From Azonexus sp. (GTDB lineage: Bacteria; Pseudomonadota; Gammaproteobacteria; Burkholderiales; Rhodocyclaceae): a stretch of 64,000 nucleotides of DNA. Made by a program: the position numbers and the translations under genes. The DNA lies in assembly GCA_031260295.1 (NCBI GenBank), contig JAIRKE010000074.1, positions 51,967 to 115,966 of the forward strand. The letters run 5' to 3'. Under the pieces are notes generated by a model. That model was not told the DNA's origin, made no database searches, and worked only from the letters and a program-made list of their open reading frames with translations. Shown here piece after piece: positions 34,491 to 38,488 of the stretch; position 1 is the first letter of the stretch; the number at the start of each line of letters is the position of its first letter.

Positions 34491-35258
34491 TTATTTGGCC
34501 CCCATCCGGATGGCCCCGTCGAGGCGGATGACCTCTCCGTTGAGATAGGCATTTTCGGCAATATGCTTGACCAGAGCGGCGAATTCCGCCGGTTTGCCCA
34601 TGCGCGTCGGGAACGGCACCATCTTGTTCAACGCATCCTGCACATCGGCCGGCATGCCGAGCAGCATCGGCGTTTCCATGATGCCCGGGGCGATGGTCAT
34701 ACAACGGATGCCGCTGCGCGCCAGTTCGCGCGCCACCGGCAAGGTCAGGGCGACGATGCCGCCCTTCGAAGCGGCATAGGCAGCCTGGCCCAGTTGCCCC
34801 TCGAAAGCGGCAACGGAAGCAGTATTGACGATGACGCCACGCTCGCCGCCGGCATCCGGCGCACCTTTGAGCATCGCGTCGACCGCCAGGCGGATCATAT
34901 TGAAGGTGCCCACCAGATTGATGTTGATCACCTTGGTGAAACTGTCCAGCCGATGCGGCCCTTCGCGGCCGGCCACCTTCTCGGCCGGAGCGATGCCGGC
35001 GCAGTTGACCAGCCCGTGCAGGCCACCAAAATGAGAGACGGCCGTCTGCACCGCCTGGCTGGCGGAAACCTCGCTGGCCACATCGGTTTCGACGAACAGC
35101 GCCGCAGCGCCCAGCTCGCCAGCCAACGCCTCACCGGCCTGACGATTGAGGTCGGCCAGCACCACCTTGGCCCCGGCGCCGATCAGCATACGGGCGGTCG
35201 CCGCCCCCAGGCCGGAACCGGCACCGGTCACGAGAAATACCTTATTGTCGATCTGCAT
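34491..35258 (-). CDS. Short-chain dehydrogenase, 3-hydroxyacyl-CoA dehydrogenase type-2-like
   Basis: A 255-residue NAD(H)-dependent dehydrogenase of the classical SDR family. The nucleotide motif is [12 protein letters not shown], the NAG-like strand motif is VNCAGIA, the catalytic serine is in [12 protein letters not shown] and the YxxxK pair in YAASKGG. The sequence from [17 protein letters not shown] and the PGIMETPML segment recall the HSD17B10/FadB2-type enzymes that oxidise 3-hydroxyacyl-CoA in fatty-acid breakdown. Substrate is inferred. GGAGAGCAGAC precedes the ATG at 35258. It ends in a strong terminator and has no operon partner on either side. Confidence 0.88.
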
Positions 35259-35488
35259 GTCTGCTCTCCATGAAATACGCCGGCCCATAGCGCACCGGCC
35301 ATTTTTCCCAAACGGTAGCGTATGGAAGAAGGCATGATAGTACCCGCTGGCGGAGAAAAGAAGAACGGGAAAAAACCACCGTCACCCCGGTGCAAAGACA
35401 CACTGCCAACATGGTTTTTAGTGTGTCGATGGGCTAGACTGAATAGGCAGCATCCACCTATGCACCATTCACCACGGGAGGTCGCCAT

Positions 35489-35677
35489 ATGTCCATTTTC
35501 GATTCCCCCATCGCCCGTTGCGAGGCCGTGCACGAAATCGTTCTGACCGACGAAACGCAGGCCGAATGCGCTCGCGAGCACGACTGCCCGCCCAGTCGCA
35601 TCTGTCCGCTGGACGGCTATTTCGTCGAGCCGTGGGAACGCACCGCCATGCCTGCTGTGGGGTCCACTCTGTCGTAA
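35489..35677 (+). CDS. Small Cys-containing protein of unknown function
   Basis: A 62-residue frame with a good GGGAGGTC site before its ATG. It begins MSIFDSPIARCEAVHEI and has three more cysteines (ECAREHDCPPSRICPLDG), suggesting metal or redox binding. No homologous family is known to me. It lies next to the AT-rich island and just before a C9-G4 tract, and the last nine codons (MPAVGSTLS) look unlike the rest, so the native C-terminus may have been altered by the insertion next to it. It could still be a chance frame. Confidence 0.5.
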   Translation: MSIFDSPIARCEAVHEIVLTDETQAECAREHDCPPSRICPLDGYFVEPWERTAMPAVGSTLS

Positions 35678-35822
35678 CCCCCCCCCGGGGCGGCCTCATT
35701 CAAACGGCGTCCAAAGCAGGTTACTGATCATCTGCGTGTGCTATACACTTTCAACACGATGCCGTCCGGCCACACGGTCGAGTACACTCTCCCTCTTCGC
35801 ATGTAGTTTTTAGGGGGGAGTT

Positions 35823-37223
35823 ATGGCGCGTAGCGATTTTAGAGCGGTAGCCGACGTTGCTGTAGAAGATCTCATGCTCGATGTACATAACGCCCGAATC
35901 CGAGCTGGAACGGATCAGAACGACTGTATTCGGCGTATCCTCCGAAAAAGAGATCAGTTTTTGGCAATCTGTGAAAGCATTGCTAAGGATGGGCTTACCA
36001 CAATGCCTATCCTCGCTTCTCCCAACGGTGATGGAACCTATACAGTCAAAGATGGGAATCGCCGAACTACAGCCCTCAAGCTGCTGAACAAACCGGAAAC
36101 ATGCCCGGAACCCAATCTGACGCCAAGGATCGCCAAGATCGCGGCAACATACAAGAATTTCCCTGCCCGAGTTGACCTTACTGTCACCGAAAACGAACAA
36201 GCAATGATCCGCGAAGTCCTCTCACGGCATCAAGGCGAGATGGGCGGCGTCGGGCAAATGGATTGGTCGGCCTATTTGCGAACGCTGTACTTGCTCAATC
36301 ATGGCCATACGGCTGAATACAAGCGGCCTGGCCAATACGCTCTTTGGGCTGAAGGTCAGGGTATCTTCGTGGAAGACGAATTTCCGATTTCCACTTTGCA
36401 ACGATTCTTCACTATGGACAACCTTCGGCTGCTCGGGTTCGATATTGACCGGAATGACGAACTGAAGCCCAATTTGCCAACGGCAAGTGTGCAACAGATG
36501 ACAACAAAGGTCGTTGGTGACTTCGGACGCGGGAAAAGCGTCAACGAGGTTTTTACTCCTGAACAAGCAAGGCAGTACATCAATGAGGTCAGAGCATCAG
36601 CGGGACTTCCACATGAGCTGCTCACTCTCCTAGCATCAACACCAACTGGCGTTGTCCCTCCAGCAACTCCATCGGTACCGGCAGCACCTGCGCCATTCGC
36701 CAGTAGTGCTAGTAAACCTTCCCCGCCGCCGCCTGGGTCAGCTACTGCTAGCCCCCTGCCGCGAGCCGTATCTACGCCTGCAACCCCCGCCGCTGATCGG
36801 AAGAAGGTTTTTGGAACGCGATCCCCTGGTATTGCGATTCCTACTACGGGCTATCCGAAGGAACAAACGCTTGTAGCGGAGCTTCGAGCACTTGATCTCA
36901 GCAAATTTCCGCTTGCTGCAACAATGCTTATGCGAGCTCTGATTGAGGTTAGCGATCTTCACTACCGATCAACAAACACGCTTGTGGATCAAGGGGGATT
37001 GGCCAAGAACATTAAGAAATCAGCACAGCACATGCAGGAGAATGGGAAACTTAATCCATCCGAAGTGGATATCGTGCAGCGCCTGTGCCATTCAGATGGC
37101 TCCATGATCGCAATCGAGACCCTGCAAAAAATGGTGCACCGTAACACTCACAACCTAGACCGCCAGTTCGTGAATACCTTGTGGGACAACATTGGCTGTT
37201 TTGTGAGGGCATGTTGGCCTTAA
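35823..37223 (+). CDS. ParB-fold (DGNRR) protein with unknown C-terminal domain
   Basis: A 466-residue protein. Residues 11-100 contain a ParB/Srx-type N-terminal domain; the DGNRRTTALKLL motif (77-88) corresponds to the GERR nucleotide-binding box of ParB and to the DGxxR motif of related nucleases. A second helical region follows (about 125-265), then a Pro/Ala/Ser-rich linker (265-325) and a helical C-terminal domain (345-466) with LSKFPLAATMLMRALIEVS and, near the end, MVHRNTHN and WDNIGCF. No ParA or parS-like repeat is seen, so chromosome partition is unlikely. A strong site (AGGGGGGAG) precedes the ATG. Composition is visibly AT-richer than the neighbours. Its 3' end overlaps the convergent DNA methyltransferase gene by 69 bases, which suggests the two moved together. 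A modification-linked defence role is inference. Confidence 0.75.
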   Translation: MARSDFRAVADVAVEDLMLDVHNARIRAGTDQNDCIRRILRKRDQFLAICESIAKDGLTTMPILASPNGDGTYTVKDGNRRTTALKLLNKPETCPEPNLTPRIAKIAATYKNFPARVDLTVTENEQAMIREVLSRHQGEMGGVGQMDWSAYLRTLYLLNHGHTAEYKRPGQYALWAEGQGIFVEDEFPISTLQRFFTMDNLRLLGFDIDRNDELKPNLPTASVQQMTTKVVGDFGRGKSVNEVFTPEQARQYINEVRASAGLPHELLTLLASTPTGVVPPATPSVPAAPAPFASSASKPSPPPPGSATASPLPRAVSTPATPAADRKKVFGTRSPGIAIPTTGYPKEQTLVAELRALDLSKFPLAATMLMRALIEVSDLHYRSTNTLVDQGGLAKNIKKSAQHMQENGKLNPSEVDIVQRLCHSDGSMIAIETLQKMVHRNTHNLDRQFVNTLWDNIGCFVRACWP

Positions 37224-38078
37224 GGTTTGCCTACGAGTCAACTCAGGAGCAGATTGCAAACTGAGATTTCTATAGATAAGCAATTCTGTAGCCTGTGGTC
37301 GTGCTCGGTGCGTAGAGTATTGCAGGGAGAATTCGACCTGATCGAACGAACGGTATAGCTCGCTTATTTCCTTGGCTTTATCATAAGTAACTATTACTGG
37401 CACCTTGAGATTGGCCACGCGCTGAGCAATCACTGCATGATCGTCAGGGCCATAGAAGTTGCGATAAAGCTGAGATCCCTTCTGAAAATATGGGGGGTCA
37501 AGGTAGATTAGGCTTTTCTTTGGCAATTTCGGCACAACAATATCTAGTAAATCAAGGGCATCAAGTCCATAGACACTGATTCGCTTGGCAAGCTTCCCGA
37601 TAGCTCGAATTCGTTCAATCAAGTCTTCCTTGTTGTACCTTGCACCGAGCTTCCACGCTCCACTTTGGCTTTTCCCTCCTATGACCCCTCCGGCAAGGAT
37701 GCCTGATCGATTTGTCCGGTTGAGGAAGAATGCGGCAAAAGCCACATCAAGTTGAGAGTGATTCGCTGACGTTGCTAGGATTTCACGCTGAGTTTGCCAA
37801 GCCACCATTGAAACCTGTGTGGCCTTAATTTTTGCAATTAGCTCATCCACTTGCTCCGTAACAGCTTTCCAAAATGAGAAGATTACGGGGTCGGCATCAT
37901 TGATAACAATGCGGTCAACATAGCCGTGAGCTAGAAGAAAAAGCGCAGCTCCACACCCTCCAGCATACGGTTCGACATACCAACCACCGCTAATCTGGTT
38001 GTGCCGCAACAGTTCCGCAATCCATGGCCCCATTCGTCCCTTCCCACCAGGATACCGAAGCGGTGTTAAAAATGCCAT
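37155..38078 (-). CDS. D12-class DNA adenine N6-methyltransferase (Dam-like)
   Basis: A 307-residue SAM-dependent enzyme that methylates adenine in DNA. The N-terminus LRYPGGKGRMGPWI and the SAM motif WYVEPYAGGCGAALF are characteristic of the D12 (Dam/MboI) class; FAAFFLNRTNRSGIL is a class-specific segment, and the catalytic DPPY is in LIYLDPPYFQKGS. The target sequence cannot be read from the protein. No restriction endonuclease is recognised next to it; the only partner is the convergent ParB-fold gene, overlapping at the 3' ends. Codon composition is AT-richer than the flanks, in line with horizontal transfer. GGAA lies six bases before the ATG. Confidence 0.92.
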   Translation of the reverse strand: MAFLTPLRYPGGKGRMGPWIAELLRHNQISGGWYVEPYAGGCGAALFLLAHGYVDRIVINDADPVIFSFWKAVTEQVDELIAKIKATQVSMVAWQTQREILATSANHSQLDVAFAAFFLNRTNRSGILAGGVIGGKSQSGAWKLGARYNKEDLIERIRAIGKLAKRISVYGLDALDLLDIVVPKLPKKSLIYLDPPYFQKGSQLYRNFYGPDDHAVIAQRVANLKVPVIVTYDKAKEISELYRSFDQVEFSLQYSTHRARPQATELLIYRNLSLQSAPELTRRQTLRPTCPHKTANVVPQGIHELAV

Positions 38079-38254
38079 TCGCTATTCCTATTTGCCGGGT
38101 GCCGTACCTGTAAAAATGCGCAGTAGGTCATTCAAATGTTTTTGAGCAGCCTGCCAGATGCAGCAGTAAGGTAGGTAGGTAGTGGCACTGTTTGTCGCCA
38201 TGTTTGCTGGAAATTTGTCACTCTGCCTAGTGTGCAAAGACCTAATTTAAAGCT

Positions 38255-38292
38255 AAACAGGGCACTACGTCGCTAGACATAGTGCCCTGTTT
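38255..38292 (-). terminator. Hairpin terminator downstream of tRNA-Thr
   Basis: AAACAGGGCACTA pairs with TAGTGCCCTGTTT over a 12-base loop, 12 bases beyond the tRNA 3' end. On the minus strand it is followed by a T-rich stretch. It also marks the right edge of the AT-rich island. Confidence 0.75.
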
Positions 38293-38303
38293 TAACATCA
38301 TTC

Positions 38304-38379
38304 TGGTGCCGGAGATAGGAGTCGAACCTACGACCTTCGCATTACGAATGCGCTGCTCTACCAACTGAGCTACACCGGC
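38304..38379 (-). tRNA. tRNA-Thr, anticodon CGT
   Basis: The 76-base gene folds as a standard cloverleaf with D arm GCTC...GAGC, anticodon loop TTCGTAA (anticodon CGT), T arm GTAGG-TTCGACT-CCTAT, and an encoded CCA end. The acceptor stem pairs GCCGGTG with CTCCGGC and has a T6-T67 mismatch. The sequence from the D arm to the T arm is nearly the same as E. coli tRNA-Thr(CGT). The gene stands alone and borders the AT-rich island on its 3' side. Confidence 0.95.
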
Positions 38380-38488
38380 ACTGGCCGGCACTTCCCGGAT
38401 TCCGCCAAAGCGGTCTTTCCGGCCAGTGGCTGCGGCACAGCGTAGAATTATAGCTTTTTCGCCGCCGCCAAGGCAACGCCCAACCACG

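Follow-up and report, generated by a model that had tools for sequence, protein, structure and literature searches.

PD-lambda-5 is a two-gene anti-phage system that was discovered by functional selection in Escherichia coli, where it protects the host from phages (Vassallo et al. 2022, PMC9519451). Passages of the literature describe it as an apparent compacted combination of restriction-modification (RM) and abortive infection (Abi), a view repeated in PMC10799925, and it has been reported in prophages, islands and hotspots (PMC12824646, PMC12629846). The present study concerns two genes, A and B, in a stretch of 64,000 nucleotides from Azonexus sp. (assembly GCA_031260295.1, contig JAIRKE010000074.1, positions 51,967 to 115,966), referred to below as the window. 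As was found by a search of the PADLOC models, protein A matches PD-Lambda-5_A (PDLC03998) at 3e-56 (residues 10–465, profile positions 5–464 of 466) and protein B matches PD-Lambda-5_B (PDLC04018) at 3.3e-110 (residues 2–276, profile positions 2–277 of 291). Since both products of this adjacent gene pair match the two proteins of the system over nearly their whole length, the locus is, judging by its sequence, a member of PD-lambda-5. The initial annotation had proposed a modification-linked anti-phage system and a search of defence-gene collections; the proposal is borne out, and the island is settled as a recognised system of an already known kind. Both genes are intact and convergent, with ends overlapping by 69 bp, a feature that the annotation did not contain. 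The present study adds a testable domain model of A, a clade of convergent loci, and the changing partners of B.

An E. coli homologue (L230), which is not equated with the clone tested in PMC9519451, shares all ten invariant A residues with the window protein. Its A protein matches the same top model at 5.1e-168, and identity to the window proteins is 22–24% for A and 46% for B. The genes of the homologue are co-directional, A then B, whereas the window pair is convergent with the overlap mentioned. The homologue belongs to a prophage, where its neighbours on the two sides carry the annotations replication endonuclease (together with a DUF3850 fragment) and phage portal protein, whereas the window pair occupies a chromosomal spot on a contig without an integrase match.

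Fusions of HEPN and ParB were already present in a survey of 2013 (PMC3710099), whose table includes Saro_3948, marked “mostly active”, as well as the HEPN protein MAE_28990 in an operon with ParB nuclease and DNA methylase genes; unlike these, the C-terminal domain of window A has no canonical arginine. ParB-CTPase fusions are surveyed in PMC12704722, the main text of which does not use the term HEPN, and ParB and HEPN are met in Dnd and BREX settings in PMC10853773 and PMC12839542. The sole HEPN passage of PMC10952713 gives this domain for other systems of Vassallo et al., not for PD-lambda-5. The PrrC protein with the type I RM system PrrI may be likened to the window pair by its way of working only, in that a HEPN effector is tied to a guard of DNA modification, but PrrC contains an ABC NTPase domain and is partnered by HsdMSR (PMC3710099). 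The type IV restriction systems GmrSD and SspE (DUF262 and DUF1524), to which the initial annotation had looked for kinship, were ruled out. No Pfam family was found in A at E ≤ 1, hence no DUF262, HNH or partition-ParB domain, and the window system differs from them also in its methyltransferase partner and its C-terminal domain.

Protein B scores 61.3 bits against PF02086 (MethyltransfD12; cut-off 22) and carries the RYPGGK and DPPY motifs, which together place it among D12-class DNA adenine methyltransferases, in line with the first reading of its motifs as intact. Its solved structural relatives are 7m6b, DpnII M1 and Dam. Protein A possesses both a ParB-CTPase fold and the GxxR P-motif; the latter, GNRR, had been recognised in the initial annotation as a ParB-type nucleotide-binding motif. 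The nucleoside triphosphate (NTP) specificity of such folds is not predictable from sequence (PMC12704722). The structure of the C-terminal domain, which the annotation had recommended predicting, was modelled as a helical fold that is tentatively read as HEPN-like: residues 334–466 folded alone gave a predicted local distance difference test (pLDDT) score of 88.9 and a predicted template modelling score of 0.84. Protein A is modelled as a ParB-CTPase domain joined to a putative HEPN-like domain, in which the customary catalytic arginine is missing but an arginine (R371) and a histidine (H439) are conserved. When profiles of A and its C-terminal domain were searched against PDB sequences, no HEPN and one weak ParB-like row were found, and with Foldseek alone neither model had a match at E ≤ 0.001. 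In two A homologues (L042 and L041) the C-termini read RNGNATKH and KYGNTTKH, where L[NQ]xxxH is usual, and a tryptophan stands at the position of R371; their C-terminal domain may be replaced or nearer to canonical HEPN. One row with a long run of X (L051) was excluded from the later A sets.

The co-occurrence of the two genes was assessed by searching both profiles in one identical phylum draw of 397 genomes. At E ≤ 0.001 the A profile matched 32 genomes and the B profile 93, many of these matches being short ParB or general Dam-type hits. With cut-offs for strong matches of 1e-15 (A) and 1e-60 (B), chosen after the tables had been viewed, strong A was found in 14 genomes, strong B in 14 and both in 11, and co-occurrence of homologues, named in the initial annotation as a check, was thereby found. 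The two genes stand side by side in nine of the 11 (the window genome, G429, G220, G319, G470, G251, G191, G267 and G453; A is split over two contigs in G453 and broken by a stop in G470) and one gene apart in the other two (G303, G484). With the own genome excluded, 10 genomes share the genes against 0.43 expected (hypergeometric 3e-15), the genomes not being independent. Strong A occurs without strong B in G397, G283 and G249. Strong B occurs without A in G193, where an ATPase gene is beside it, in G184, where B is partial near a contig end, and in G485, where neither A nor an ATPase was matched within the 9.5 kb examined. Loci with A homologues but no strong B are L038, L039 and L046; a neighbour in L039 has weak HEPN hits below the cut-off.

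The nearest relative, in Achromobacter (L007), is 81% identical to the window in A and 85% in B and has the same convergent 69-bp overlap. An AAA_15/AAA_21 ATPase gene lies upstream of its B, with a tyrosine integrase gene adjoining the ATPase. Between the window and this locus the ratios of non-synonymous to synonymous substitution (dN/dS) are 0.076 for A and 0.044 for B, at dS of 1.6 and 2.0, which is near saturation; purifying selection thus seems to act on both genes. The pair is also convergent in the Pseudomonas phage record OQ658368. The phage contig L143 (4001–5386) retains the overlap with an intact B, while A is reduced to a C-terminal remnant of 176 residues. Searched as a single query in viral_contigs, A found no relative; the viral loci were reached through B.

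The partners of B were compared in a scan with alignment A2, in which 567 stretches were confirmed and the best 80 kept, so that the architecture counts are those of kept loci. A quick tree without bootstraps was built from strong-B loci only; after two identical rows (L069, L150) had been dropped, it held 65 distinct B proteins. B is co-directional with A in 30 of them, including one (L092) with the order B, ParB protein, third gene. It is accompanied by an ATPase only in 15, convergent with A in nine, and in five convergent with a ParB protein that is accompanied by a third gene. No partner was seen in three (L086, L144, L146), where a contig boundary falls at B, and the arrangements convergent with an ATPase, co-directional with an ATPase and co-directional three-gene were found once each. 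Window B lies within a starred set of 10, comprising seven convergent loci, one convergent with an ATPase and two at contig ends. On such a quick tree, convergence marks a supported clade containing the window. The distinction between convergent arrangements of all kinds and co-directional ones requires five changes on the tree, and the ATPase-only label requires seven, at least three of them forced by starred branches.

The ATPase label was assigned by a profile built from 10 of these proteins. Seven were also checked in PADLOC and Pfam: their Pfam matches are AAA_15/AAA_21, and the PADLOC models that they match are AriA, PtuA, GajA or ATPase-Toprim. The same methyltransferase subfamily was seen paired with an AAA_15/AAA_21 (OLD/AbiEii-like) ATPase mostly on phage contigs and in prophages (L066, L067, L070, L071, L076, L077, L080, L083, L085, L095, L096, L098, L100, L107, L148, L212 and L216, and in E. 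coli L213 and L214). In E. coli and in Citrobacter phage phiNP the ATPase gene precedes the methyltransferase gene, and a site-specific integrase gene stands ahead in the two E. coli copies viewed. An ATPase and a ParB-type A stand beside one methyltransferase in L007 (8452–10122) and in the phage contig L084 (795–2426), the latter with ATPase, A and B in one row. A search of open-licence papers for prophages that combine an adenine methyltransferase with an OLD-type ATPase found none, which says little.

The three-gene loci encode a shorter ParB protein and, as a gene of its own, a nuclease-like protein. The third gene has the consensus KDAGIDVIAW...QVASG, from which L048 deviates in the second part, and it is read as putatively PD-(D/E)XK-like; Pfam searches of six such proteins gave nothing above the cut-off and one weak unrelated hit. 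A more remotely related ParB gene, in L053, has a neighbour that matches Mrr_cat at 7.9e-7. Homologues of B thus occur, as far as their predicted neighbours indicate, with varied partners, namely a ParB-HEPN protein, a ParB protein with a nuclease-like gene, or an OLD-like ATPase.

The analysis itself shows that the pair belongs to the family, that its conserved motifs are intact, that it is under purifying selection and that the two genes co-occur, and it supplies fold predictions; phage protection is documented in the literature for the E. coli system. On this basis it is fairly probable that the pair is an anti-phage locus in which B marks self DNA, A reads unmarked DNA through its ParB switch and the HEPN-like domain is the effector, so that one protein probably marks the DNA of its own cell and the other probably attacks on meeting unmarked DNA. 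B would methylate adenine in some short motif of the resident DNA. The ParB-type NTP-binding domain of A would be a nucleotide-switched reader of DNA without the mark, and the HEPN-like domain would cut RNA or otherwise halt phage growth, the trigger being unmarked phage DNA or a phage that disables B. We infer which DNA state A reads, what its ligand is and what the HEPN-like domain acts upon. The role of reader is suggested for the ParB part because in the three-gene loci a shorter ParB protein is accompanied by a separate nuclease-like gene. It would seem that neither gene strictly needs the other, since A occurs without B and L143 combines an intact B with a remnant of A.

The R-x(4-6)-H motif of HEPN RNases was not found in A: window A has L, T and E at H-5, H-6 and H-7, arginine at H-5 occurs in none of the 27 or 12 aligned A proteins, and arginine anywhere from H-4 to H-7 occurs in one of each set. 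With the canonical arginine missing, RNase activity of the C-terminal domain is at most putative. H136 and W148, conserved outside GNRR, have no role in the model. All of this would suit a DNA nuclease whose ParB-fold domain nicks unmethylated DNA, as in plain two-gene RM, with a HEPN-like domain that only binds or dimerises, and nicking activity of ParB/Srx proteins is mentioned in PMC12839542. We nevertheless regard such a nuclease as unlikely, as the related three-gene loci add a nuclease-like gene, as if ParB alone were insufficient, and as a mere scaffold would not need H439 and R371, which are conserved to the extent given in the table.

Relatives of the pair are known from IMG/VR contigs and an E. 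coli prophage, and one adjoins an integrase gene in Achromobacter; together with RM-like logic, this fits a selfish element in which B is an antitoxin-like marker, A is a toxin, loss of the pair kills the cell and phage protection is a by-product; A without strong B speaks against such addiction, which is quite improbable. That B is mainly an anti-restriction mark of phages or islands, with A as its regulator and no immune role in this host, would agree with the intact B and broken A of L143 and with the other partners of B. This is very unlikely given the anti-phage activity of the E. coli system (PMC9519451) and the purifying selection on A. Although the ParB fold is widespread (PMC12704722), it is already scarcely credible that the genes are chance neighbours or that A is a housekeeping or packaging ParB protein, in view of their co-occurrence and adjacency. 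A partition ParB, with helix-turn-helix and C-terminal dimerisation domains, was rejected, as A has no Pfam domain of this kind and scores 16.3 bits against NCBIfam parB_part (cut-off 58.45); the housekeeping family by which the initial annotation would have been overturned was therefore not found.

The preferred mechanism of marking and reading may be extended, tentatively and as a single joint proposal that we hold possible rather than probable. PD-lambda-5 would be one edition of a broader unnamed class, in which one D12 adenine methyltransferase is kept and the sensor or effector is exchanged: ParB fused to a HEPN-like domain, ParB alongside a stand-alone nuclease of PD-(D/E)XK-like type, or an ATPase resembling OLD/AbiEii, with two of these occasionally present together. 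The ParB domain would be a nucleotide-switched reader of the methyl mark, the HEPN-like domain would have a rearranged R371/H439 active site, and the window clade would split the control of marker and killer through convergent genes. If true, a methyltransferase hub with exchangeable readers and killers would show cells and prophages re-equipping one self-mark with new weapons, and it would test whether ParB-type NTP switches read DNA methylation.

Table. Features of the locus and its borders (window positions).
Feature	Position	Strand	Basis or remark
Gene A, PD-lambda-5_A homologue, 466 aa	35823..37223	+	open reading frame; PADLOC PDLC03998 match
ParB-CTPase-like domain, A residues 1-125	35823..36197	+	
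GNRR (P-motif GxxR), A residues 78-81	36054..36065	+	invariant in 27/27 and 12/12 aligned A proteins
Helical middle part, A residues 126-270	36198..36632	+	AlphaFold2 model; few ParB rows cover it
Linker without regular structure in the model, A residues 273-343	36639..36851	+	pLDDT < 50 at 273-322
Putative HEPN-like helical domain, A residues 345-466	36855..37220	+	model of C-terminal domain and structural rows
R371 of A	36933-36935	+	27/27 in set A3, 9/12 in set A1
H439 of A	37137-37139	+	27/27 and 12/12
Gene B, PD-lambda-5_B homologue, predicted D12 (Dam-type) DNA adenine N6-methyltransferase, 307 aa	37155..38078	-	PDLC04018 and PF02086 matches
RYPGGK motif, B residues 8-13	38040..38057	-	invariant in 14/14
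DPPY motif, B residues 194-197	37488..37499	-	invariant in 14/14
Tail-to-tail overlap of A and B, 69 bp	37155..37223	.	identical overlap in L007 and L143
Small conserved genus gene, 62 aa, left border of variable spot; outside the system	35489..35677	+	matched in 35/60 genus genomes
tRNA-Thr(CGT), right border of variable spot; outside the system	38304..38379	-	homology to most examined congeners begins ~38300-38304

The two genes were described in the initial annotation as AT-rich and unlike their flanks, and their guanine-cytosine (GC) content is indeed low, at 52.1% in A and 48.2% in B, while the window as a whole has 61.7%. Segments as GC-poor as the island number 10 of 1235 (2250 bp, step 50), and at least six of them begin at 35700–36100. 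Promoter-like sites at the locus (4 against 2.6 ± 1.2 in shuffles) and terminator-like sites (4 against 4.0) are nothing to build on. An inverted repeat between B and the tRNA gene (38258–38289) has the look of a terminator by eye and is absent from the terminator scan list.

The borders of the island proved as annotated, the count for the small gene in the table including the own genome. Four congeners (G028, G027, G047, G039) have between the borders a single gene of 318–334 residues, read from its translation as a probable response regulator (receiver-GGDEF in G028). In G004 the flanks match those of the window, at 89.6% on the left up to ~35285 and at 91.1% on the right, where the match begins at 38302, and only 38 bp separate the two; as the small gene is also absent there, G004 does not offer a clean empty site. 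Since congeners carry a response-regulator-like gene or 38 bp where the window carries A and B, the spot is variable. The insertion spot claimed earlier thus stands as a variable spot, and tRNA-directed integration at an attachment site is not supported: only two direct repeats, of 10 bp each, join the edges (35200–35850 and 38050–38450). The loci assigned to the spot are window positions 35678–38303, L153, L184, L219, L220 and L221. An integrase-borne island was ruled out, as Phage_integrase has no match on this contig, in agreement with the earlier remark that none is present, and seven matches elsewhere in the genome. A plasmid origin was rejected with zero DNA matches in the plasmid collection. 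Mrr_cat has no match in the own genome, as expected if the host tolerates N6-methyladenine, which is weak evidence from one genome only. Protein A matches four plasmid and five phage records, all below 60% identity, and it is matched in three of 100 genomes, which comprise the own one and relatives (the three being the own genome, G026 and G006).
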